This document shows positions 31,410 to 59,331 of a stretch of DNA of 64,000 nt, one piece after another. The stretch's first letter is position 1, and every line of letters begins with the position of its first letter. Source of the DNA: [Pseudopropionibacterium] massiliense (lineage in GTDB: Bacteria; Actinomycetota; Actinomycetes; Propionibacteriales; Propionibacteriaceae); NCBI RefSeq assembly GCF_900607225.1, contig NZ_LR027842.1, forward strand, positions 3,376,535-3,440,534, in the 5' to 3' direction. The notes below the pieces were generated by a model, which was not told the DNA's origin, did not search any database, and worked only from the letters and a program-made list of their open reading frames with translations. Position numbers and translations under genes: made by a program.

Positions 31410-31447
31410 GCGGGGTTGTGCGTTTCACGTGAAACGCACAACCCCGC
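31410..31447. promoter_or_regulatory. parS site within a perfect 38-bp palindrome
   Basis: The parS core (31422-31435) is extended 12 bases on each side by a perfect inverted repeat, left arm GCGGGGTTGTGC, right arm GCACAACCCCGC. All 38 bases are self-complementary. It could act as an enhanced ParB nucleation site or as a cruciform/terminator. Confidence 0.92.
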
Positions 31448-48085: not shown

Positions 48086-49261
48086 ATGAGTGCTGACGCC
48101 AGGCGGGCCCGGTGGGGTGTTGTCATGCTGTTCTGGTTGAACGGGGTGGCGTGGTCGTCGATCCTGCCCAGGTATCCCGAGATCAAGGAGGCCCTGAGGC
48201 TCGACGACCAGTGGTGGGGTGCTGCGGTGGCGATCGGACCCGTCGGCGGTCTGGCCGCGGGCCTGGTGACGGCCGCGCTGATCCGGCGGTACTCGTCGGC
48301 GTGGGTGTCGGTGATCTCGCAGGTGGTGGGGATCGCCATGCTGAACCTCATCGGCAACGCCCCCGCGGCCTGGGTGTTCGTGGTGGGGGTGTTCCTGATG
48401 GCGAGTCTCGACGCGCTGACCGACATCTCGATGAACGCCCACGGGCTGCGCGTCCAGGAGCTCTACGGCCGCCCGATCCTCAACAGCTTCCACGGCTGGT
48501 GGTCCATCGGCGCGGTGTGCGGGGGCTTCATCGGGTCCGCCGCCCGGCAGGCTGGGATTCCCGTCTGGGTGCAGTGCCTCGCCGCGACGGTGGTGTTCGG
48601 CGGGATGTCGCTGGGGGCGAAGGCCCTGCTGCTGCCCGGCCTGGACCACGAGCCGCAGGCCGAATGGAGCCGGCAGCAGCGACGGCGGCGCCTCCCCGCG
48701 GGGATCGTCGTGCGACTCGCGGCGCTCGGGCTGCTCGGGGCCTCGGCCGGGTTGATGGAGGACACCGGGTCGACCTGGGGCGCGATCTACCTGGACCGGC
48801 AGTTCGACGTCATCCCGTTCGTGGCGGGCATGGCCTTCGTCGGGTTGCAGGGTGCGCAGCTGGTCGGCCGGTTCACCGGCGATGCCCTGGTCTCGCGGAT
48901 CGGGCCCCGGTTCGCCGTCGTTCAGGGCGCCATCATCGCTTTTCTCGGCATGGGGTGGTCGCTGGTCTGGCCTTCTCCGGTCACCGCGATTCTGGGCTTC
49001 GCCTGCGTCGGCTGGGGTGTCGCGACGGCGATCCCGTCGACCATGCACGCCGCCGACGAGCTGCCCGACATGAACCACGGCGACGGGCTGATGATCGTCA
49101 CCTGGATGATGCGGATCGGGTTCTTCGCGGGTCCTCCGTTGATCGGTGCGCTGTCGGAGGCCACGGACCTGCGGCTGGCGCTGTGGGTGGTGCCGGCCTT
49201 CGCGGTCGTGATCCTGGTGTTGAGCCCGTCGTTGGGCCGGAGTGCCGGTGGGAGACGATGA
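48086..49261 (+). CDS. MFS transporter
   Basis: A 391-residue transporter with about 12 TMs, beginning MSADARRARWGVVMLFWLNG. SLDALTDISMNAHGLRVQEL is the only polar family-like stretch near TM4. Relatives often transport sugars or act as drug exporters; the substrate is unclear. Divergent from deoA with a shared inverted repeat, so a nucleoside/deoxyribose link is possible. Confidence 0.8.
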   Translation: MSADARRARWGVVMLFWLNGVAWSSILPRYPEIKEALRLDDQWWGAAVAIGPVGGLAAGLVTAALIRRYSSAWVSVISQVVGIAMLNLIGNAPAAWVFVVGVFLMASLDALTDISMNAHGLRVQELYGRPILNSFHGWWSIGAVCGGFIGSAARQAGIPVWVQCLAATVVFGGMSLGAKALLLPGLDHEPQAEWSRQQRRRRLPAGIVVRLAALGLLGASAGLMEDTGSTWGAIYLDRQFDVIPFVAGMAFVGLQGAQLVGRFTGDALVSRIGPRFAVVQGAIIAFLGMGWSLVWPSPVTAILGFACVGWGVATAIPSTMHAADELPDMNHGDGLMIVTWMMRIGFFAGPPLIGALSEATDLRLALWVVPAFAVVILVLSPSLGRSAGGRR

Positions 49262-49433
49262 TGACGTGCCGGCGAATCCCTCGGCGGTCCGTGGATTCGG
49301 GCGGCTACCGGTTTGGATGTACTTAAGTCGGTCTTCCCGTCAACTGAAGATGGCCTCTTGTCGCCGTTTCTTCCACGCTGCGGACCCCTGTGCCATGCTC
49401 GGGATGAGCATGCGGGTGAGAGGCGGTGTGGAA

Positions 49434-49925
49434 ATGAGCCATGGTCCCGAGCTGATGCCGGAACTTCCCAGAAGACTTCCGCGGCAGGCGCTCGTGGTGT
49501 GGCGACTGGGTGTTCTTGCGAGTGCCTTCCTGCTTGTGCTCCTGATACTCGTGGCCGGGTGGCTCTGGCCCCGACAACGATTCCTGGAAATCGTGACATG
49601 GCCCGCGCTCGGCGTCATACTCGTGTCAACATTTCTTGATGTGGTGGTTCTGTTGGGGCTGCGTCACAAATATTACCGGTACGAGACCGATTCCTCGGGA
49701 CTCCGGATCAGTAGAGGATACATGTTTGCTCGATACATCAGCATTCCCGCGTCCCAGATCCTCTATGTCGACGTTCGACAGGGCCCGCTCGCACGCGCGC
49801 TCGGTCTCAGCACCTTGGAGGTCGGTACTCTCGGGACAACGCACGATCTGGGGCCGCTGGAGTCGGCCAGGGCCAGCGAAATAGTGCAGCAATTCGGTGT
49901 CGGAGCGCGGCATGCGGCGCAATGA
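49434..49925 (+). CDS. bPH2-domain membrane protein (YdbS-like), possible bacteriocin immunity
   Basis: A 163-residue protein. Two TMs (LASAFLLVLLILVAGWLW and LGVILVSTFLDVVVLLGL) are followed by a bacterial PH domain: YRYETDSSGLRISRGYMFAR, ILYVDVRQGPLARALGLSTL. In the aureocin A53 and lacticin Q clusters, proteins of this kind provide self-immunity. Here it partners the next gene and lies close to the leaderless bacteriocin gene. ydbS/ydbT pairs also occur without bacteriocins, so the role is inferred. RBS weak; start less certain. Confidence 0.75.
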   Translation: MSHGPELMPELPRRLPRQALVVWRLGVLASAFLLVLLILVAGWLWPRQRFLEIVTWPALGVILVSTFLDVVVLLGLRHKYYRYETDSSGLRISRGYMFARYISIPASQILYVDVRQGPLARALGLSTLEVGTLGTTHDLGPLESARASEIVQQFGVGARHAAQ

Positions 49926-51309
49926 TCCACGCATGCTGGTCTTGACGACCTACCGGGCCATGGTGGTCTATGTGCCCTTCATGCTGATCCAGGGAAGCGT
50001 CGGTGCGGCGCTACCGGGCTGGGCGGCTTTCCTGTGGATGATGCTGGTGGTGTACTATTCCGTGACCCGGCTTGAGGTGATATTCACCAAATATCTCACG
50101 ACCTTCTGGCACGCGGATGGTGCGGGGATCCGATTTCGTACCGGTTGGCCGGTTCGGGAGGAGACCCATCTCTCCTGGGCCGAGGTGGGTAGTCTCGAGG
50201 TGCACCAGGGGTGGATGGCGAGACTGCTGTGCGTATCGCAGGTAACCGCCTCCGTGGGTGCCGAGAATCGTCGAAGTCTGGTTCTCGATGCGCTCTCCAG
50301 GGCGGAAACAGAAAGATTGTTGAGCCTGCATGACGTTTCTCCTGCGGGAGATGAGGAGGGAGGATGCGTCGCAATCGAGGAATCCGGCGAAGAGATCTAT
50401 CGCGCTCGTCCGCGTGATTATTTTTTGATCGGATTCACGCATGGTAAGTTCTTTCTCTTCGTGCCATTCCTGCTCGGAACCGGATCCGACCTCCTCGAAT
50501 ATGTTGGAGTGGATCTGTTTGGACTTCAGGTCACGTGGGAACTCGTGATCGTCGCTGTCGTGGCAGCGGGGGCGTATGGTGTGGTGCGGGCGTTGGTCAC
50601 CTATGGCCGCTACCGTGTGATCAGGGTTCCTTCAGGTTTCAAGACGAAGGGCGGCATCGTGCAGCGCACGACCTTCGAGGCGCGGGCGACGGAGGTGGTG
50701 GGAATCCGAATTGATCGGAATCCCTTGATGCAGTTGACGGGATACTGCTCGGTGAACCTCATCCTGGCCACTGGGAGAAGGGATCTCGAGGCTCTTCCAA
50801 TACTTCCGGTGATCGCGTATGGCAGAGCATTTGACGAGGTGAAAAACCTCATTCCGGTTCACTGCGAGCAACGATCTCCCTGGGCCGGGAAACTGCCGTT
50901 CACGGTTCTTGCCGGTGGTGTCGGGGTGGCGGTTGTGTTCGCGTGGGCCTCGAACCTGTGGCTGGCGGGACTCGCCCTCGCCGGTGCCCTGTCGGCGGCC
51001 AACTCACTGGTGGCCAGGGTGGGACGTGGTGACGGGGTCGTTCTCGTGGAGAGGGGATTGCTGGGGCGCAGCCTGCGGGTGATCGATGAACAGATGGTTC
51101 GCAGCGTTTCCGCGTTTCAGCGGGTGTGGCCGACCCCGTCGTCCACCGTGTTGATGTCGTTCACGGTGCTCGATCGCCGGAAGTTGAGGTTGCACATTCC
51201 TGGGGTTCCGGTGACCCTTGCGCGAATGTTGATGGCCGTCCCGCGGTCAGTGTCGGTTGCCGGACAGCGATGTCGGCGGCTGGGGTATGACGGCGATCGT
51301 TTTCCATAG
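49912..51309 (+). CDS. Multi-bPH2-domain membrane protein (YdbT-like), possible bacteriocin immunity
   Basis: A 465-residue protein with about six TMs and bPH2 domains. One domain is visible around GFKTKGGIVQRTTFEARATE and GIRIDRNPLMQLTGYCSVNL; others near the N-terminus (GIRFRTGWPVREETHLSW) and C-terminus (VLVERGLLGRSLRVIDEQMV). ATG 49912 follows GGAG and overlaps the previous gene. Its 3' end overlaps the histidine kinase gene (opposite strand) by 63 bases. Likely immunity/transport with its neighbour. Confidence 0.72.
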   Translation: MRRNDPRMLVLTTYRAMVVYVPFMLIQGSVGAALPGWAAFLWMMLVVYYSVTRLEVIFTKYLTTFWHADGAGIRFRTGWPVREETHLSWAEVGSLEVHQGWMARLLCVSQVTASVGAENRRSLVLDALSRAETERLLSLHDVSPAGDEEGGCVAIEESGEEIYRARPRDYFLIGFTHGKFFLFVPFLLGTGSDLLEYVGVDLFGLQVTWELVIVAVVAAGAYGVVRALVTYGRYRVIRVPSGFKTKGGIVQRTTFEARATEVVGIRIDRNPLMQLTGYCSVNLILATGRRDLEALPILPVIAYGRAFDEVKNLIPVHCEQRSPWAGKLPFTVLAGGVGVAVVFAWASNLWLAGLALAGALSAANSLVARVGRGDGVVLVERGLLGRSLRVIDEQMVRSVSAFQRVWPTPSSTVLMSFTVLDRRKLRLHIPGVPVTLARMLMAVPRSVSVAGQRCRRLGYDGDRFP

Positions 51310-52386
51310 GCCATCGTTTCTGTCAACCTCGAACGATCCTCGTAACTGTCGAATCCTCTCCTGTACTCCGAGCAGTCCAAGTCGACCCTTGTTCTCTTTC
51401 TTGCCCGAATCGGGATTCACGTACTCTGCTATCAGGTCACCCTGGTTTTCACGAAGAATTATCGACACGCTGCTTCGGGGAGGACTGTGCTTTATCATAT
51501 TGGTCACGGCCTCGTGGGTGATCTTTGACAATGTGACGGCGCGGGTGGGGGTGATGTTCTTTATGTCAATGGTGACCTCGGGTAAGAAACCTGCTTTTTC
51601 GAGGCGATTGACTTCCCGTCTGGTTTCCGCCGCCAACGTGATGACGTCGTTCGGCTGTTTCCGGTTGTCGACGGAACTCGACGTGCGCAGCGATGAGATC
51701 AGGCTTCTGAGATCATACGCGGAGGTGCTGCAGTCAAAGGCGATCCTCTCCAGGTCGTCGCGTATTTCCTCCGGAAGGTCTGGATGAGTCAGTGCAAGAT
51801 GTGCTCGCATGGCTGTGTGGGACAGCGTCTGCGCCACGGTGTCGTGCAGCTCACGAGCCATTTCGAATCGATAGGAGGTCAGTTTCTGACGCCCGAGCTC
51901 CTCGGCGGCCGCGACGCGTTCCTCACCGCTTCGCAAGAGCACCGCCCCGCCCACGGCTATCGTTGATCCCATCAACAGGGATGCCACATCGATCGCTATT
52001 TCCGAGGGACGCGGTGTCTCCATCGCGACCCCGACCATGATGATGATCCAGATCGTCATCCACCACGTGGCATGGTTGATGCGCAAACGAATTATCGTGA
52101 AAACATGGATCAACAGAGCTGCCGCGCCAACGCTCATGCCCTCGGTTGGAACGTACAGCCCGAGGAGGGTCAGGCATGTGGTGAGGGCTGCGGATTGCAA
52201 GACGAATCGTTTCGCGAAGGCCGCGCTCAGGAACGGAAGTGCATTGACGAGCCAATACGTGGTGTTGCCCGACTCGACAAGGGCGAAGACGGTTGTCAGG
52301 GCCAAGGCAAGTGCTGCAAGCAGTGGCTCCGACCAGTCACTCCTCAGCGTGCGCGAGGTCGGCGTCATGTTGTCGATCCGTGACAT
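51247..52386 (-). CDS. Sensor histidine kinase (HisKA_3/NarX-DesK-type)
   Basis: A 379-residue sensor. N-terminal half has five to six TMs with little extracytoplasmic sequence, typical of sensors of membrane-active peptides. The phosphoacceptor is in RELHDTVAQTLSHTAMRAHL; the ATPase part has ITHEAVTNMIKHSPPRSSV and GRLGLLGVQERIRQLRGSF. Partner of the response regulator at 53141-53773. Could sense the bacteriocin or cell-envelope stress. Confidence 0.85.
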   Translation of the reverse strand: MSRIDNMTPTSRTLRSDWSEPLLAALALALTTVFALVESGNTTYWLVNALPFLSAAFAKRFVLQSAALTTCLTLLGLYVPTEGMSVGAAALLIHVFTIIRLRINHATWWMTIWIIIMVGVAMETPRPSEIAIDVASLLMGSTIAVGGAVLLRSGEERVAAAEELGRQKLTSYRFEMARELHDTVAQTLSHTAMRAHLALTHPDLPEEIRDDLERIAFDCSTSAYDLRSLISSLRTSSSVDNRKQPNDVITLAAETRREVNRLEKAGFLPEVTIDIKNITPTRAVTLSKITHEAVTNMIKHSPPRSSVSIILRENQGDLIAEYVNPDSGKKENKGRLGLLGVQERIRQLRGSFEVDRNDGLWKTIAVIPQPPTSLSGNRH

Positions 52387-52566
52387 GCGCCTCAGTATAG
52401 AGTGTGCGATGTTGTATGCACAGGGAAACGGATCGGTTCTGTTGCGGTGGTCGCGAGTCTGGTGAAGGGGTGCGCGCCGGCCATACGATTGAAATTTTCA
52501 TCGATGTTCTTCCCTGCTTCGGTGCTCCCTTGGCCGGGTGTTCGCGGAATTAGTTTTGCTGCTTAA

Positions 52567-52572
52567 TATAAT
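52567..52572 (+). promoter_or_regulatory. -10 element of the bacteriocin gene promoter
   Basis: A perfect TATAAT in an AT-rich patch about 240 bases upstream of the bacteriocin start; no clear -35 is seen, which suits activator-dependent transcription. The rest of 52387-52813 has no gene; GGTGGTGGCTCCG occurs twice in it. Confidence 0.45.
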
Positions 52573-52813
52573 ATCGGGGATACGGTGGATCATGTGAAGG
52601 TTGGTGTGCGGAACATCCCGCGCTGCACATGCACCGCGGGTGGTGGCTCCGATACCAAAGTTGATCGTGTTATCCGCCAAGGTAGCTTGTTGTGGCACGA
52701 AGGTTGGTGATCAAGCGGCAGGGTCTTCCCGTTCAGTTCGAAACAGGATGTACTGGTGGTGGCTCCGCGGAAGCTTGGAAATCAATCACGGTAACTCAAG
52801 AAGGGATTGCATC

Positions 52814-52972
52814 ATGGCTCTTTTCTCCCGTCTCGTTTCCTACGCTTGGAACTTCGGAAGGCAGATTGTCAACTGGCTCTGGGCACACAGGAATGTCATC
52901 CTCGGCTGGCTTCGTAATGGGTTGGCCTTCGATGTGATCATCGACAAGGTTCGCAGGTACTTGGGGATCTGA
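52814..52972 (+). CDS. Leaderless bacteriocin of the lacticin Q/aureocin A53 type
   Basis: A 52-residue cationic peptide starting MALFSRLVSYAWNF and ending DKVRRYLGI. It has four Trp (12, 21, 23, 32), seven Arg/Lys against two Asp (net about +5), no Cys and no leader. It aligns without gaps to lacticin Q as I remember that sequence: G15, V19, W21/W23-A24, IL30, WL33, G36, D40, K45 and terminal LGI match. AAGAAGGG lies 8 bases upstream. An in-frame upstream ATG at 52748 has no good RBS. Acts on target-cell membranes; flanked by immunity-type and regulatory genes. Confidence 0.85.
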   Translation: MALFSRLVSYAWNFGRQIVNWLWAHRNVILGWLRNGLAFDVIIDKVRRYLGI

Positions 52973-52990
52973 TCGACTTTCCTGATGCAT

Positions 52991-53033
52991 CGCGTGGGTG
53001 TGGTGCCAATGGGAGTGGCACCACACCCACGCG
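52991..53033. terminator. Perfect 17-bp-stem hairpin between bacteriocin and response regulator genes
   Basis: CGCGTGGGTGTGGTGCC, 9-base loop, GGCACCACACCCACGCG. It starts 18 bases after the bacteriocin stop and, by symmetry, can also end the converging response regulator transcript. That would prevent antisense reading through the bacteriocin gene. Confidence 0.8.
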
Positions 53034-53140
53034 ACCGTGGCGGCGGGAGGGATCTCCTGACGTCAACGGGATGGCTACCGTAGCATGTGAGTGATCCTCC
53101 ACCGAGAGGAAGCGGGTGTGGCCACTCCGTCTGGAATATT

Positions 53141-53773
53141 TCAGTCGATGAGGTTCCACTCGTAGGCAAGCGCAGCCAGGGCAGTTCGATTGGGCCGGCC
53201 GAATTTTTCCAGCAGCCTGCTGACGTAGGACTTCACCGTGCTCACCGCCAGGTGGGTTTGGGCGGCGATCTCTGCGTTGCTCCTGCCCTTGCCTATCAGG
53301 ACTATGAACTCGCGGTCCCGGGTGCTGAGGTCCGGAGGGGCGGTGCTGCGACGCAGCATGGGCAGCAGGGCGGTGATGAGCTTCGGGGAGACGAGGGTGT
53401 CCCCGCTGTAAGCCGCGAGGACCCCGTTGACCACCATGTGGGGGTGGTCGGATTTCAGGAGAAAACCGGTGGCCCCCGCCTCCAGGGCCTTGATCATCGT
53501 CGTCTCGTCGGCCATGGCGGTGAAGATGAGCACCCGGCACATCAGCCCTTCGGCGAGTACGCGTCTGGTGACCTCGATCCCGTCGAGCTGAGGCATGATC
53601 AGATCAGTGATGAGGACATCCGGCTGCAGCTCCTGTGTGACCTGCAATGCCTGTCTGCCGTCATGCGCGATCCCGACCACCTCGATGGAGTGGGCCCCCG
53701 ACAGATACCGTTGCAGGGCGGTGACGGCGAAGTGATCGTCCTCGGCGATGACCACCCGGATGTGTGTTTCCAT
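53141..53773 (-). CDS. NarL/LuxR-family response regulator
   Basis: A 210-residue regulator. Receiver: IRVVIAEDDHFAVTALQRYL with the acidic pair, phospho-Asp in DVLITDLIMPQLDG, and LLKSDHPHM. Output HTH: LSTRDREFIVLIGKGRSNAE and HLAVSTVKSYVSRLLEKFG. ATG 53773. Pairs with the kinase at 51247-52386; the bacteriocin gene lies between them on the other strand. Confidence 0.9.
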   Translation of the reverse strand: METHIRVVIAEDDHFAVTALQRYLSGAHSIEVVGIAHDGRQALQVTQELQPDVLITDLIMPQLDGIEVTRRVLAEGLMCRVLIFTAMADETTMIKALEAGATGFLLKSDHPHMVVNGVLAAYSGDTLVSPKLITALLPMLRRSTAPPDLSTRDREFIVLIGKGRSNAEIAAQTHLAVSTVKSYVSRLLEKFGRPNRTALAALAYEWNLID

Positions 53774-53832
53774 TCTGCAATGGTAGGGCTGCGGGTTGGG
53801 TTGTGTGTCGATGTTTGAAACCTCCTCGGAGT

Positions 53833-54606
53833 TTAGCGGTAGATGCGGCCGCGGCGCAGGGCGATGGGAGCCGATGCCGTCACAACGGCGCACCAGAGGA
53901 TCAGCAGGAGACCCGCTAGCAGCGGCGTCACCCTCGTCGCCAGTTCGGAACCGGTCAGGGTGGCCGCATTCATGAGGGAGGACGGAAGATAGGAGAAGAT
54001 CGGGGTGTCAAGACCCGCGGTTGTGAGAGCGGTCTCCAGGGCGGGCACACCAACCACCACGATCAGGACGGTACCCACCGAAAGCGCCGGCTTGGGAAGC
54101 CACCAGGCCGCAACCAGCGCCAGGATGCCCCAGGTGAGATGGACGGCGAACGTACCCAGAACATTGATCCAGAGGACGGGTGAGGCCAGTGTCGCCAGGA
54201 CGAGGGAGGCCGGCAGGAGTGAGAAGCAGAGCGCGACTGCCGCCCCCGTCGTGATGACGGTGGTCAGCAGGGATGCCGTTGAGATCACGATGAGCTTGGC
54301 GCGGAGGATCCGGCCGTTGCTCATGGCCATGTGGATGTGATTGATCGTGCCCGAGGACCAGTCGGCGGTCACCAGGGTCGTCGCCCAGAATGCCAGCAGC
54401 AGGCCGGAGAAGAACGTCGGGCTTCCCGGCATGAAGGCGACGGCCTCGATTTGTGACGCGTGCGTTGCCCCTTCCTCCAAGGCCTTCTGGACGGCCGAGG
54501 AACTGAATGCGACGGCGGCCAGGGTGGCCAGCAGGATGAGGAGCCACACCCAGTAGGTGATTCGGTAGGCCTTGGAACGGACCAGCTCCGCACGGACATC
54601 CCTCAT
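53833..54606 (-). CDS. ABC-2 type permease near bacteriocin gene
   Basis: A 257-residue membrane protein with about six TMs, starting MRDVRAELVRSKAYRITYWV. It begins at the end of the ATPase gene (4-base overlap) and ends 60 bases before the response regulator. In lantibiotic and leaderless bacteriocin loci such transporters (LanFEG or LnqEF type) export the peptide or clear it from the membrane. That role is inferred from context. Confidence 0.8.
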   Translation of the reverse strand: MRDVRAELVRSKAYRITYWVWLLILLATLAAVAFSSSAVQKALEEGATHASQIEAVAFMPGSPTFFSGLLLAFWATTLVTADWSSGTINHIHMAMSNGRILRAKLIVISTASLLTTVITTGAAVALCFSLLPASLVLATLASPVLWINVLGTFAVHLTWGILALVAAWWLPKPALSVGTVLIVVVGVPALETALTTAGLDTPIFSYLPSSLMNAATLTGSELATRVTPLLAGLLLILWCAVVTASAPIALRRGRIYR

Positions 54607-55538
54607 GACTCTTCCTTCCTGGCGGCGATGAGATCACCGCGATACTCCACGTGATCGGCGGTCAGTTCCTGGAATCTTTTCTCGAGGCTGATCGTCTCCT
54701 GCTCCATGTGGGTCAGCGCAACCTCGGCGGCCAAGGCGATTTGCCCGATGGCCTCCGGTTCGAGCGAGATCCGCAGCAACCCATTTCCCGTCACGTCCAC
54801 CGTGGCGCCGGCCCGGCGGCAGGCCTCCGACAGAACGGTGGGGTCGGTGGCCGAGACCAGGGTCGCGGGGTTCGCCAGCCGGGTGAGCTCGGACATGGTT
54901 GCCTGGCTGATGATCTCGCCCTTCCCGATGACCACCACCCGGTCAGCCGTCTGGGCCATCTCCGAGAGCAGATGCGACGACATCAACACCGCTGTGCCAT
55001 CGGCGGACAACATCCTGACCAGGTTGCGCACCCACGTCACCCCATCCGGGTCGAGACCGTTGACCGGCTCGTCGAGAACCACGTTGCCGGGGTCGGTGAG
55101 AAGTGCTGCTGCGATGCCAAGACGTTGCTTCATACCGAGGGAGAACGTGCCCGCTCGACGCTTGGAAACGGCGTGCAGACCGGTCAGTTCGAGAATCTCG
55201 TCCACACGCGAACGTGGTACGTCCTGCATCAGTGCGAGTGCCCTCAGGTGATCGTGTGCCGTGCGACTGGGATGCACCCAGCCGGCATCGAGCAGCACGC
55301 CGAGGTTCGTCCGTGCCGCACCGCGGGGAAGGGGCGTGCCGTCGATGATGATCTGCCCGCCGTCTGGCTGGTCGAGTCCGGCCACGATGCGCAGCAACGT
55401 TGTCTTGCCGGCGCCGTTGGGACCGACGAAACCCGTCACCGCACCGGCGGGTACCTCGAAGGACACTTCCCGTAGAACCTGGTGCTCCCCGAATCGACGG
55501 GTCACCCGCGATATCTCGATCAAGATCATCCCTCTCAT
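54603..55538 (-). CDS. ABC transporter ATPase (bacteriocin/lantibiotic-immunity type)
   Basis: A 311-residue ATPase. Walker A is GPNGAGKTTLL, signature FSLGMKQRLGIAAALL, Walker B NVVLDEPVNGLDPDG, switch His in MSSHLLSEMA. FSLGMKQRL (rather than LSGGQ) is common in LanF/BcrA-type immunity ATPases. The C-terminus has an accessory helical region. The start may be ATG 55538 or TTG 55523; the latter has AGAGGG at good spacing. Works with the downstream permease. Confidence 0.85.
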   Translation of the reverse strand: MRGMILIEISRVTRRFGEHQVLREVSFEVPAGAVTGFVGPNGAGKTTLLRIVAGLDQPDGGQIIIDGTPLPRGAARTNLGVLLDAGWVHPSRTAHDHLRALALMQDVPRSRVDEILELTGLHAVSKRRAGTFSLGMKQRLGIAAALLTDPGNVVLDEPVNGLDPDGVTWVRNLVRMLSADGTAVLMSSHLLSEMAQTADRVVVIGKGEIISQATMSELTRLANPATLVSATDPTVLSEACRRAGATVDVTGNGLLRISLEPEAIGQIALAAEVALTHMEQETISLEKRFQELTADHVEYRGDLIAARKEES

Positions 55539-55816
55539 TCATGGCCGGTGGCCGTCACACTGCCATTCCACAAACCAAGGGACGTCGATATCGAGGAGTT
55601 CTGCGCGAAAGACGACCGTCGTCGGGTGAATTGCCTACTTTGGTACATCGGCGGAGGATTGATCGCAAGGTGTGCACGACACGATCCCCCCGACCGTCGA
55701 GGGCCGAGAGGACCGTGTCATCCGTCAGTTTGAGGTGTTCGCGTGTGGCGTTGCAGGGAAGGAAGCCGTGTCGATGACGTCACATCATCGCAGTGCAGGC
55801 GTTCCGTGACGCTGTT
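55539..55816. other. Spacer between ABC ATPase gene and secreted peptide gene
   Basis: About 280 bases without a gene I can support. It should hold the promoter of the ABC transporter genes; no clear consensus elements seen. Confidence 0.4.
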
Positions 55817-56029
55817 TCACGGTTTGCAGAAGAAGCGTGAAACATACGTGCAGAGCATGTCCTGGATGAAGCTGTACTCGCTCGAGGACCAGCCGCCAAG
55901 GTCGATTTCCATTGGCTGGGACTGGGCGGGCAGGGTTTCCGTGGCCTGCGCGACCGTGGGGGTTCCCACCACCAAGGTGCTGATGGCCAGGGTGGCTCCG
56001 ATGGCGGCGGCGATCTTGCGCTTGAGCAT
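55817..56029 (-). CDS. Small secreted peptide B, C-terminal Cys pair
   Basis: A 70-residue precursor: MLKRKIAAAIGATLAISTLV then a likely cleavage at AQA|TE (residue ~29). The mature part ends QDMLCTYVSRFFCKP with Cys 60 and 68. AAGGAGAAAGAC precedes the ATG. Paralogous to peptide A by its signal sequence and its Cys-loop end. Could be a Sec-exported antimicrobial, pheromone or sensor ligand; I do not recognise the family. Confidence 0.7.
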   Translation of the reverse strand: MLKRKIAAAIGATLAISTLVVGTPTVAQATETLPAQSQPMEIDLGGWSSSEYSFIQDMLCTYVSRFFCKP

Positions 56030-56205
56030 GTCTTTCTCCTTGGATTTCTCGTTGGTTGAGATGATTTTCATCCCTATGGGATTCGCGTCGACGGGATCGG
56101 TGATTGGTGGTTCCGGCGGTACTGGCCATGACACGTCCCGGTGACGGGTGGACCCGGAGCTTCGCCAAACCTGCGAGGTGCGCGAACGGGTCGTGTGAGA
56201 ATCAG

Positions 56206-56406
56206 TCACTTACGGCAGAAGATTCCCAGGTACTTGCAGAAGTAGAAGGAGAGTCCGCGGAATTCTTCTCCCGTCGAGGTGTGGTTGAGTTTCGGGTCCC
56301 AGCCTGGGTCCGCTCCATCATCCGCGTGTGCAGCTGCCGGGGTTCCGAGCAGGGTTGCCAAGGTCAGGGTGACTCCGGCGATGGCTGCGAGTTTGCGCTT
56401 GAGCAT
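56206..56406 (-). CDS. Small secreted peptide A, C-terminal Cys pair
   Basis: A 66-residue precursor: MLKRKLAAIAGVTLTLATLL, cleavage likely AHA|DD (~28). The mature ~38-residue peptide begins acidic and ends SFYFCKYLGIFCRK with Cys 57 and 64, aromatic/hydrophobic residues and basic end. RBS AAGGAGAAAA. The pair of related genes upstream of the ABC exporter genes suggests they belong to the bacteriocin locus. Confidence 0.7.
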   Translation of the reverse strand: MLKRKLAAIAGVTLTLATLLGTPAAAHADDGADPGWDPKLNHTSTGEEFRGLSFYFCKYLGIFCRK

Positions 56407-56436
56407 TTTTCTCCTTGGAGTTGAGTGGTGGAAGGA

Positions 56437-56465
56437 ATTTGATGTCAGATGATCTCTGATGTCAA
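56437..56465 (-). promoter_or_regulatory. Promoter with direct repeats upstream of peptide A
   Basis: On the minus strand TTGACA (56460-56465), 17 bases, TCAAAT (56437-56442). It overlaps two direct TGATGTCA repeats (56440-56447 and 56457-56464, 17 bases apart), which could bind a regulator, possibly the response regulator of the locus. Confidence 0.4.
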
Positions 56466-56527
56466 ATCCTTTTCTTTTCTTTATTCAGTTTTGTTTCTGA
56501 TTTCCCGGTGCGGCGCGGGAAGGACTG

Positions 56528-57619
56528 TCATTCGGCCTTGCGGAGGTGGGCGACGATGCCGTCGATGTCCTGCTGCAGGCGTTCGAGGCGGACGAAGTGG
56601 CCACCTTGTTCCTCGTAGCGTTCGTACTTGATTCCCGCCGAATCGAGTTTTTCTGCGAACTCGCGCTGGGTGTTGAGAACGGTGTCCTCGTTCAAGACGC
56701 TGAAGAGCTCCTGCAGCCCGGACACCTTGGCATGCCCTTCCCACACGGGCTTGAGTCGATCGGTGCCGGCGACGAGGAAGATGCGCTTGTTGCGGTAGCT
56801 CTCGAGGTTCTCGATGGGGTTATCCGCGGTGATGAGATCTTGACGCCACTTGCTTTCCGGGGCTCCGTAGATGGTACCGCCGAGAAGCTCGAAGGCAGCC
56901 GAGGTGAAATTCGCCCAGCGCACGATCACGTCGGTGAGTGGTTGACCGCTGAGCCGTATGCCGGTGCTCGTGGTGCGGAGGTTTGCTGGTCCGGAGTGGG
57001 CGCTGACGGAGGCGAATTTGTCGCTGTACTTGGCGGTGTATTTGAGGGCTCCGAAGCCTCCCATGGAGAATCCGGAGACGGCGCGTCCGGCTTGTTCGGG
57101 GAAGGTGCGGAAGGTGGCGTCGACCCAGGGGATGAGTTCTTCGATGTGGAAGGTTTCCCAGTTGCGTGGGCCCACGTTGGAACTTACGGGGTTGCAGTGC
57201 CAGCCGAGTCCGGCGTCGGGCATGACGACGATGAGGTCGCGTCCGGCGGTCATTTCTCGGATGTTGTATCCGTCGAATTCGGTGTATTGTCCGCCGCCTC
57301 CGTGGAATTGGTACAGCACGGGGTAGCGTTTGCCGCTGTCGTAGCCGTCGGGGAGCAGAACGTTGACACGCGGGTTCCGCAAGAGGCCCGGATTGAAGTC
57401 CTTCGATGTGAACGAGATTATTCTTCTTCTGATCGATGGAGTCGTGAACTCGTAGGTCTGCATGCGGCCGTCGGTTTCCTGGCTGACGACCTCCAGTCCG
57501 GCAGCGTGGGCGGGGGCTGCGGTACCCAGTGCCGCTCCGGCGCCGAGAGCGGATGCCGCTGCAATCGCTCCGGTTCCCTTGAAGACGGTGCGGCGGCTGA
57601 GTTTGTGGTTCAAGGACAT
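56528..57619 (-). CDS. Tat-exported esterase, copy 1
   Basis: A 363-residue alpha/beta hydrolase of the esterase (PF00756/antigen-85-like) family. Tat signal LSRRTVFKGTGAIAAASALG, cleaved after PAHA. Nucleophile in GFSMGGFGALKY, acid candidate in VAGTDRLK, His in EEQGGHFVRLERLQQ. Substrate unknown; possibly short-chain acylglycerols or envelope lipids. ATG 57619 has GGGAG upstream. A 382-bp block (56974-57355) is identical to copy 3. Preceded by the shared promoter at 57798-57826. Confidence 0.85.
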   Translation of the reverse strand: MSLNHKLSRRTVFKGTGAIAAASALGAGAALGTAAPAHAAGLEVVSQETDGRMQTYEFTTPSIRRRIISFTSKDFNPGLLRNPRVNVLLPDGYDSGKRYPVLYQFHGGGGQYTEFDGYNIREMTAGRDLIVVMPDAGLGWHCNPVSSNVGPRNWETFHIEELIPWVDATFRTFPEQAGRAVSGFSMGGFGALKYTAKYSDKFASVSAHSGPANLRTTSTGIRLSGQPLTDVIVRWANFTSAAFELLGGTIYGAPESKWRQDLITADNPIENLESYRNKRIFLVAGTDRLKPVWEGHAKVSGLQELFSVLNEDTVLNTQREFAEKLDSAGIKYERYEEQGGHFVRLERLQQDIDGIVAHLRKAE

Positions 57620-57797
57620 GACTCTCCCTTGTGGTTGAATTTCCATGGGGACAGGTGATTCCGATGTGGGTTGTTTCCCTCTGGAATCGATTCAGGAATG
57701 GTGTTTGACTTCACAACAGACGTGGTCAACCCGGCGTCTTGGATGGTCTGTCCAACCTCCGCTCCCGTGGAGTTCGTTCGCGCTCCAGTTGAACGCA

Positions 57798-57826
57798 ATC
57801 CTAGCTGGATACAACTGTGTATGCAA
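57798..57826 (-). promoter_or_regulatory. Shared esterase promoter/dyad, copy 1
   Basis: Minus strand: TTGCAT (57821-57826), 17 bases, TAGGAT (57798-57803). The spacer contains ATAC-N6-GTAT dyad symmetry. Leader to the start is about 170 bases. Confidence 0.6.
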
Positions 57827-57887
57827 CCCTTTCATCATGCGGAATTCTGATTGCTATTTCAAGGATTTTTCTGATTGAACGGCTTCC

Positions 57888-57922
57888 CCGGGGTCTCCAT
57901 TCCTGTGGCTCGGGGACCCCGG
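57888..57922 (-). terminator. Terminator after esterase copy 2
   Basis: CCGGGGTC ... GACCCCGG, 8-bp stem, 19-base loop, between the stop of copy 2 and the promoter of copy 1. Confidence 0.5.
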
Positions 57923-57959
57923 TTCCGTTCGTGAAATCCCGTGCCTCCGGGGGTCGCGG

Positions 57960-58910
57960 TCAGCCGGCCTTGCGGAGGTGGGCGATGACGCCGTCGATGT
58001 CCTGCTGGAGGCGTTCCCTGCGGACGAAGTGGCCGCCCGGCTCCTCGTGGCGTTCGTAACGGATACCCGCTCCGTCCAGCGCGGCGGCGAATTCTCGCTG
58101 GGTGGGAAGCACGAAGTGTTCGTTCGCGTCGAAGTAGTCGGTGCCGGAGACGAGGAAGATGCGCTTGCCGCGGTAGCTCTCGATACGCTCCACGGGGTTG
58201 TCGGCGCTGACTCGGGCCTGGTCCCAGGGGATTCCGTAGACGGTGCCACCGCCCAGGTCGACGGTCGAGCTGGCGTTCGCCCAGTGGACGACCGCGCCGT
58301 TGATGCTCCGTATGCTGGCGGGTCCTGAGTGGCTGCTGACGGATGCGAAGTGGCCGTAGTACTTGGCGGTGTACTTGAGGGCGCCGAAGCCTCCCATGGA
58401 GAATCCGGAGACGGCGCGTCCGGCCTGTTCGGGGAAGGTGCGGAAGGTGGCGTCGACCCAGGGGATGAGTTCCTCGATGTGGAAGGTTTCCCAGTTGCGT
58501 GGCCCCAGGTTCGCGGTCACCGGGTTGCAGTACCACCCCGCGATTCCGCCGTCCGGCATGACCACGATGAGATCGCGTCCGGCGGTGAGCCCCCGGATGT
58601 CGTCCTCCCTGTCGAACTTCATGAAGTTCTGCGCCCCGCCGTGAAGCAGGTAGAGGACCGGGTAACGGCGGCCGCTGGCGTAGCTGTCGGGCAGGAGGAC
58701 GTTGATTCGCGGATTCCATGCGATCGACGGGGTGGAGACCTTGTAGTACTCCATCCGGCCATAGGTCTGGTGCTCGATGACGTTCAAGCCCGCCGCGTGT
58801 GCGGGGGTGTTGACCGCCAGGGCGGTTCCGGCGCCCAGGACGGATGCGGCGGCGAGTCCCCCGGCTCCCCTGAAGACGCTGCGGCGACTGATACTGCGAT
58901 CCAAAGACAC
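57960..58910 (-). CDS. Tat-exported esterase, copy 2
   Basis: A 316-residue member. Tat signal ISRRSVFRGAGGLAAASVLG, cleavage after PAHA (~39). Ser 171 in GFSMGG, Asp 258 in SGTDYF, His 294 in GGHFVRRERLQQ. GTG 58910 (VSLDRS, as in the other copies) is favoured over an upstream ATG. Only one Cys (128, in WYCNP). More distant from copies 1 and 3 than those are from each other. Confidence 0.85.
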   Translation of the reverse strand: MSLDRSISRRSVFRGAGGLAAASVLGAGTALAVNTPAHAAGLNVIEHQTYGRMEYYKVSTPSIAWNPRINVLLPDSYASGRRYPVLYLLHGGAQNFMKFDREDDIRGLTAGRDLIVVMPDGGIAGWYCNPVTANLGPRNWETFHIEELIPWVDATFRTFPEQAGRAVSGFSMGGFGALKYTAKYYGHFASVSSHSGPASIRSINGAVVHWANASSTVDLGGGTVYGIPWDQARVSADNPVERIESYRGKRIFLVSGTDYFDANEHFVLPTQREFAAALDGAGIRYERHEEPGGHFVRRERLQQDIDGVIAHLRKAG

Positions 58911-59048
58911 GATGCTTCCTATTGATTGAAATTTCATCACGATATGGGGCACGAGACGACCACTGCCGATTCGTGCGAGTTCGGAATTGATGCCGGAGTG
59001 TTCTCCCGCTGGCCTTTCGGGAATCCGACTCGGTGAAGCCTCCCTCGA

Positions 59049-59077
59049 ACCCTAACTGGATACAGGTTCGTATGCAA
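59049..59077 (-). promoter_or_regulatory. Shared esterase promoter/dyad, copy 2
   Basis: Minus strand: TTGCAT (59072-59077), 17 bases, TAGGGT (59049-59054). Same architecture as for copies 1 and 3. Confidence 0.6.
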
Positions 59078-59160
59078 CTCCTTGTGGGGAGGATTTTGCC
59101 GCTCACCTGGAGGTGATGTCGCGGCTCGGGGTGCGGCGCGGCCTCGACCACGAGAAATAG

Positions 59161-59283
59161 TCAAAGAATCAAGAAATACGAGAGCTTCTGCTCGGCCTTG
59201 TGGAAATGGGCAATGACGCCGTTGATGCCCTGCTGGAAGCGTTCCATACGGGCCGCGTGGTCGCCCTCCGGGTTCGTCGGCAT
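59161..59283 (-). pseudogene. 3' fragment of a fifth esterase copy
   Basis: A 40-codon frame, MPTNPEGDHAARMERFQQGI then NGVIAHFHKAEQK. It matches the C-terminal end of the paralogues (GGHFVRRERLQQDIDGVIAHLRKAE) with the catalytic-His position intact. The rest of the gene is missing. It is probably a remnant of deletion or recombination in the tandem array. Confidence 0.6.
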
Positions 59284-59331
59284 CCGTCCCCTCGACGCCG
59301 CCGCGGCGCGCAGGGGGTGAGGCGGTTCGCC

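Follow-up and report, generated by a model that had tools for sequence, protein, structure and literature searches.

At 49434-55538 of a 64,000-nucleotide stretch of [Pseudopropionibacterium] massiliense DNA (the whole of which we call the window, and which covers 3.377-3.441 Mb of a 3.469-Mb contig), a small peptide gene lies among genes for two membrane proteins, a two-component system and an ATP-binding cassette (ABC) transporter. We consider it very likely that these seven genes form a leaderless bacteriocin cluster of the type known for aureocin A53 and lacticin Q, in a member of the Propionibacteriaceae that is presumably an Arachnia; arachnicin is probably a near ortholog of its peptide. 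The structural gene (52814-52972, + strand, coordinates confirmed) encodes 52 amino acids, MALF...YLGI, and has a Shine-Dalgarno-like AAGAAGGGA upstream of its ATG at 52814. The peptide scored above the cut-off of both family models, with 35.2 bits against Pfam PF11758 (cut-off 25) and 48.7 bits against the NCBIfam model NF033881 aureocin_A53 (cut-off 27). When we compared it with the PDB sequences using phmmer, lacticin Q (2n8p) was found at E 3.3e-8, and all five distinct sequences returned at E<=10 were lacticin Q, epidermicin, BacSp222 (two sequences) or aureocin A53. A preliminary description of this DNA had proposed a leaderless bacteriocin locus with about 20 of 52 positions identical to lacticin Q; the gapless comparison gave exactly this figure (20/52, 38.46%), and the proposal itself is borne out by the family models, the predicted fold and the conserved neighbourhood.

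The peptide contains four Trp residues (positions 12, 21, 23 and 32), two Asp and no Glu, with a charge of about +5, a computed mass of 6219 Da, a grand average of hydropathicity (GRAVY) of 0.377 and an EMBOSS isoelectric point (pI) of 11.86. Five columns of an 11-row peptide alignment are invariant (G15, W21, W32, G36 and I42). A longer in-frame open reading frame (ORF) is also present around the gene in the window. In a relative placed in the same genus, Tessaracoccus sp. OH4464_COT-324 (G030), an in-frame stop lies two codons upstream of the corresponding ATG, so that no space is left for a leader. The start codon is thereby supported, and the peptide would be made without a leader. A second match to the peptide in the window's genome was rejected as not credible (E 0.25, inside a long open frame).

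The AlphaFold2 model built on the 11-row alignment has helices at 2-12, 16-24, 26-34 and 39-50 with a mean pLDDT (predicted local distance difference test) of 90.7, which is the four-helix arrangement that had been expected. In a Foldseek comparison with the PDB, the model was closest to epidermicin (6sif, template modelling (TM) score 0.89, root mean square deviation 0.6), followed by lacticin Q (2n8p, TM 0.83) and aureocin A53 (2n8o, TM 0.76). Six of the eight matches at E<=10 were chains of these three bacteriocins with a probability of 1.00, none of the matches reaching E <0.001. The peptide is thus predicted to adopt the four-helix saposin-like fold of the aureocin A53-like class.

Two genes for membrane proteins with bPH_2 (bacterial pleckstrin homology, PH) domains are located 1.5-3.4 kb upstream of the peptide gene, on the + strand. 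The first (49434-49925, 163 amino acids) is of the YdbS type and has one bPH_2 stretch over the cut-off (PF03703, 30.7 bits, cut-off 22). The second (49897-51309, 470 amino acids from the listed GTG) is of the YdbT type and has two (52.8 bits), against a YdbS/YdbT pattern of one and three; for this gene, an ATG at 49912 agrees better than the listed GTG with the start of its homologue in the Tessaracoccus locus L022 (MKRNDPRML). Neither PH protein had a match in PADLOC. The kinase, regulator and ABC genes are all on the strand opposite to the peptide. A sensor histidine kinase of the HisKA_3 type (51247-52386, PF07730, 47.8 bits), with several hydrophobic segments in its hydropathy profile, retains an HDTVAQ box, and a NarL/LuxR-type response regulator (53141-53773, PF00072 Response_reg and PF00196 GerE) retains its Asp; from the alignment we preferred the regulator start METHIRVV at 53773 over the listed ORF start at 53893. 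The ATP-binding protein (54603-55538, 311 amino acids) matched PF00005 with 100.1 bits, and its gene overlaps by 4 nt that of a 257-amino-acid permease (53833-54606). No Pfam match was found for the permease. Its AlphaFold2 model (pLDDT 74) was nearest to NosY (TM 0.69) and to the PmtCD permeases (TM 0.50), at E 0.002 or weaker, which gives moderate support to an ABC-2-like permease. The kinase, regulator and ABC ATPase of the preliminary description are present, while its term LanF-like describes a resemblance only, since the ATPase scored 203.5 bits against TIGR03740 (lantibiotic protection, LanF), below the cut-off of 309.75. The score against the PmtD family model, 17.1 bits, fell well short of its cut-off of 220.

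Matches to the peptide family model came from 7 of 198 genomes in the taxonomic family, from 5 of 391 genomes drawn evenly from the order (all five among those seven) and from 3 of 394 genomes of a class draw that counted the window's genome, two of the three being over the cut-off. A scan of contigs returned seven loci, from an uncultured Micropruina (G114), Micropruina glycogenica (G109), the Tessaracoccus, Actinobacteria bacterium HGW-Actinobacteria-2 (G141), a Bacillales metagenome-assembled genome (MAG), Oceanobacillus halophilus and a Curtobacterium, the first four of which belong to the family set. In a plasmid search for the peptide, only Corynebacterium jeikeium was found (2 records, 37% identity).

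We scored the gene content around these peptides by tblastn with the proteins of the window and of its relatives, and by Pfam. By this measure the peptide, the YdbS-type and YdbT-type genes, the ATPase and the permease occur together at all seven family loci including that of the window, although in two of them (G139 and G014) the YdbT-type gene was detected by Pfam only and the permease gave a weak match. Within the genus, the permease was found in 2 of 39 genomes (E up to 1e-10), namely the window's genome and the Tessaracoccus. A kinase and a regulator are both near the peptide at five of the seven family loci. All six partners are complete in the window's genome, the Tessaracoccus and the two Micropruina; they are also present in G139, where the match to the regulator extends over two frames. 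The HGW-Actinobacteria-2 locus has a regulator, with no kinase match near the peptide. At the G014 locus, where PH genes, an ATPase and a weak permease were found, there was no match to a kinase or regulator, and only half of the peptide is present. The seven-gene set is thus complete in at least three more Propionibacteriaceae, in differing orders. In both Micropruina loci and in HGW-Actinobacteria-2 the peptide, YdbS, YdbT, ATPase and permease genes follow one another on one strand, and in both Micropruina the kinase and regulator lie outside this row on the other strand. In the Tessaracoccus the peptide, ABC and PH genes are co-directional and accompanied by a second YdbS/YdbT-type pair within the cassette (L022, 10862-12828), which is less similar to the window pair than the first one (31% versus 45% identity for the small protein, 32% versus 41% for the large one). 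Outside the family, the Curtobacterium locus (L070) has PH and ATPase genes and no kinase or regulator match, and a class member (G661, L071) has PH genes near the peptide, with kinase-regulator pairs on both sides at a distance of about 7 kb.

This distribution bears on whether the kinase, regulator and ABC pair could be an ordinary peptide-detoxification module that merely adjoins a bacteriocin gene. Modules of this composition are common, the ATPase resembles the lantibiotic-protection family, and the genes are on the opposite strand, all of which would fit. We nevertheless regard such chance adjacency as improbable: the kinase and regulator accompany the peptide at five of seven family loci and the regulator alone at a sixth, and in other genera the peptide gene is followed on its strand by the ATPase and permease genes. 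Moreover, when the Micropruina glycogenica cassette kinase was searched against the window's genome, the cassette kinase of the window came first of 10 matches (160.7 versus 95.7 bits), and with the regulator the window's cassette regulator came first of 27 (171.9 versus 117.3 bits). Since the cassette genes lead the matches in their own genome by 65 and 55 bits, the kinase-regulator pair appears to be associated with the cassette by orthology.

A hairpin follows the peptide gene. It is a 19-bp perfect inverted repeat with a 7-nt loop and no U-tract (52990-53034, + strand) that starts 17 nt past the stop codon, folds with a z of -6.2 over 113 nt, and is the longest of six perfect stems in the window (stem of at least 12 bp, loop of 3-12 nt). 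We consider it a putative terminator or 3' stabiliser; it could be of a general terminator type. Among nine loci that were folded, all six family loci tested (G014 left out) have a strong hairpin at the same place (z -3.2 to -6.6). Outside the family the values were -3.1 for Curtobacterium and -3.6 for G661, with the hairpins differently placed, and +1.3 for the Bacillales locus. In a gapless alignment of five of the six family loci, which leaves out L027 with its 9-nt loop and in which three rows are mutually similar, 10 of 15 pairs were changed on both sides and the covariation was 0.673 compared to 0.235 after shuffling; the percentage paired arises partly by construction, because the rows were cut around loops found by folding. 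For LsbB, a terminator right behind the structural gene is reported to be regulatory, and for lactolisterin BU a regulatory role has been hypothesised for a terminator between the structural and transporter genes (both from a passage of PMC6249370).

An 11-mer, GGTCTTCCCGT, occurs upstream of the PH pair (49330-49340, + strand) and again 92 nt upstream of the peptide start (52722-52732, + strand), and was the sole standout of 20 region-by-strand comparisons, being reached in 0 of 60 block shuffles. The window holds two exact copies; with one mismatch there are four against 1.97 expected, which was reached in 13 of 100 shuffles and is within chance. A 13-base form turned up in 5 of 76 loci, each of them a piece of the window's own genome, so that we regard this shared regulatory site as tentative.

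The strand layout raises the question of whether the cluster is a decaying remnant in which the opposed strands represent a broken-up operon. The authors of the arachnicin study stated as much for a similar layout (PMC11580447). At the G014 locus (L028, 9705-9788), adjoining PH and ABC genes, the open frame covers no more than the C-terminal half of a peptide of the aureocin A53 kind, a degenerate or frame-broken copy. For the window, we find a remnant hard to credit. All seven reading frames are open, the HDTVAQ box and the regulator Asp are kept, the same genes recur in rearranged orders, and the hairpin carries compensatory changes. Given this recurrence, strand-opposed clusters of this type may work, and as far as its sequence tells the cluster of the window probably does; together with the hairpin and the site comparison described below, the recurrence argues against the published remark that a strand-opposed Arachnia cluster is probably non-functional.

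Several observations weigh against a working aureocin A53-type cluster and have to be set beside this evidence. The cluster is split into three opposed transcription units, and scans of the region for sigma-70-like promoters and U-tract terminators gave nothing above chance. The family-model score of the peptide (47 bits) is lower than those at four of the other six loci in the family (69-81 bits). Identity to the counterparts at two Bacillota loci is 23-27% for the small PH protein and 31-32% for the ATPase, and the export and immunity roles would be transferred by analogy from Bacillota systems.

With these reservations, the aureocin A53-type reading suggests the following scheme. The peptide would be synthesised active without a leader, fold as four helices, and permeabilise the membranes of nearby Gram-positive bacteria as others of its family do. 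By analogy with lacticin Q, aureocin A53 and enterocin DD14, the ABC pair would export the peptide and remove it from the producer membrane, while the YdbS/YdbT-type pair would carry or assist export. The kinase-regulator pair, given its orthologous association with the cassette, may sense the peptide or envelope stress and drive expression, and the hairpin behind the stop codon may end or stabilise the peptide mRNA.

The part played by the PH pair is where the preliminary description has to be modified. Its domain family (bPH_2) and its distance from the peptide were correct, but the pair had been named an immunity pair, whereas published genetics ties such pairs mainly to export and the ABC genes to immunity. 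According to passages of PMC8657885 and PMC10311245, YdbS/YdbT-type pairs have been suggested to function in export: DdE/DdF were put forward as exporters of enterocin DD14, aureocin A53 transport reportedly cannot proceed without Orf8, DdE/DdF, LnqC/D and Orf8 all affect production or export, and the ABC proteins LnqEF are the minimal lacticin Q immunity unit. An excerpt of PMC13262744 likewise has DdD conferring enterocin DD14 immunity and the PH proteins regarded as transporters. The opposite assignment, with the PH pair as the immunity device and the ABC transporter as exporter, seems doubtful to us on these grounds, although work by Butcher and Helmann, cited in a passage of PMC10311245, links the Bacillus subtilis YdbST proteins with resistance to an antimicrobial from Bacillus, and one relative within the genus provides an argument in its favour.

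In this relative (G033), whose flanks are about 90% identical at the DNA level, a segment of 2.27 kb takes the place of window positions 49240-55681 and encodes a bPH pair that is 29% and 35% identical to that of the window. No peptide-family match was found in a model search of its genome, no ABC or two-component match within the 19 kb surrounding the site, and no peptide-like ORF when we checked by eye the 42 ORFs of at least 30 amino acids overlapping 8000-11200 of L023. The large orphan PH protein scored 166-252 bits against the cassette proteins of six Propionibacteriaceae, 106 against that of Curtobacterium and 45-103 against four generic proteins. In a 17-row tree of the large PH protein, which leaves out the L067 row and the generic locus L017, it was placed among the cassette proteins without resolution, the group concerned including three generic proteins as well. 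Of 39 genus genomes, 23 have some match to the large protein, with matches stronger than E 1e-40 only in the window's genome, the Tessaracoccus and G033. An orphan cassette-type pair standing without peptide, ABC or two-component genes fits protection better than export.

In the genus member with the closest flanks (G022, 93% DNA identity), window positions 49262-59331 are replaced by 2.5 kb without a match to any window gene, both the island and the bPH pair being absent from the site. The preliminary description had taken bPH genes conserved at this place in peptide-less relatives as evidence against a bacteriocin locus: G022 has none, and G033 does have a pair, but a diverged one nearer to cassette proteins. 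The three genes at the G022 site (L058, 11530-13747) encode a helix-turn-helix (HTH) protein and two proteins without a Pfam match, with PADLOC matches that are weak and of the HTH type only; they are possibly another mobile competition or defence module.

A combined reading, which we offer tentatively and consider less likely than not, is that the site has alleles within the genus consisting of the whole weapon, of unrelated genes, or of a diverged PH pair only, the last of which would be an immunity-only "cheater" allele, and that the Propionibacteriaceae have a specific form of the cluster, under the control of a dedicated two-component system and adjusted by a conserved hairpin without a U-tract immediately behind the peptide gene. 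Enterococci are known to have immunity transporters that stand alone, with no bacteriocin genes (from a passage of PMC10598978). If it is true that the orphan PH pair protects, it would help decide between export and immunity, on which papers differ. The G+C content is 56-60% at 50-53 kb of the window, a weak sign of transfer because 56-58 kb and 28-32 kb are also low.

Other features of the window were observed near the cluster and further off. The - strand encodes a pair of small paralogues (55817-56209 and 56206-56406) that have a signal-like N-terminus and two Cys close to the C-terminus, with nothing over the cut-off in Pfam or NCBIfam and nothing in PADLOC. At E<=0.001 the 66-amino-acid protein was matched in 3 of 39 genus genomes, namely that of the window (twice, the second match being its neighbour), G033 and, weakly, G022. 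Beyond it, also on the - strand, is an array of esterases with twin-arginine translocation (Tat) signals (56528-58952, with PF00756 in this first copy, and about 61.4-63.8 kb). All four matches in the window's genome are inside the window, and G033 has three, one with two TGA codons within the matched stretch. At 31410-31447 lies a 17-bp perfect palindrome centred on TTTCACGTGAAA, which we take to be parS-like, consistent with a location near the replication origin.

Aureocin A53-like bacteriocins are already known from Actinomycetota, and the claim that this copy would be a new branch in actinobacteria has to be given up. Genome mining by Hourigan et al. 2024 (PMC11580447) yielded 97 of these peptides in the phylum, and their synthetic arachnicin, from an oral Arachnia sp. 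(MAG MGYG000298963), showed activity at 100 ug/ml (15.9 uM) against L. lactis HP. Among the papers listed for bacteriocins in the open-licence literature, we found no other on this cluster. Like the window peptide, arachnicin belongs to a member of the Propionibacteriaceae, has 52 amino acids with two Asp and with Trp at positions 21 and 32, is 38.46% identical to lacticin Q, and has its regulator and transporter on strands opposing the peptide, in a cluster that its authors judged likely non-functional. The two peptides do not seem to be identical, since mass (6219 Da versus 6.3 kDa), GRAVY (0.377 versus 0.41) and pI (11.86 versus 12.12) disagree; compared by these published properties, not by sequence, the window peptide is probably a near ortholog. 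The arachnicin paper counts four genes where the window cluster has seven. The window adds a probable ortholog in a cluster with all seven reading frames open. The two-component system, the conserved hairpin and the orphan PH allele are worth a second look. With lacticin Q of Lactococcus lactis QU 5, the cluster shares the peptide family, the four-helix fold, a YdbS/YdbT-like pair (LnqC/D) and an ABC pair (LnqE/F), but lacticin Q has a TetR-family regulator, LnqR (from a title in the reference list of PMC6131525), where a two-component system is found here. It shares the family model, the fold, a YdbS/YdbT-like pair (Orf7/Orf8) and an ABC transporter with aureocin A53 of Staphylococcus aureus, which differs in being carried by a plasmid (pRJ9) and in having 21% identity in the structural alignment. 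In enterocin DD14 a YdbS/YdbT-type pair (DdE/DdF) also adjoins a leaderless bacteriocin, although that one consists of two peptides, falls into a different subgroup and is accompanied by the ABC transporter DdGHIJ. Finally, the permease model resembles the structure of PmtCD, which exports phenol-soluble modulins, themselves leaderless amphipathic peptides.

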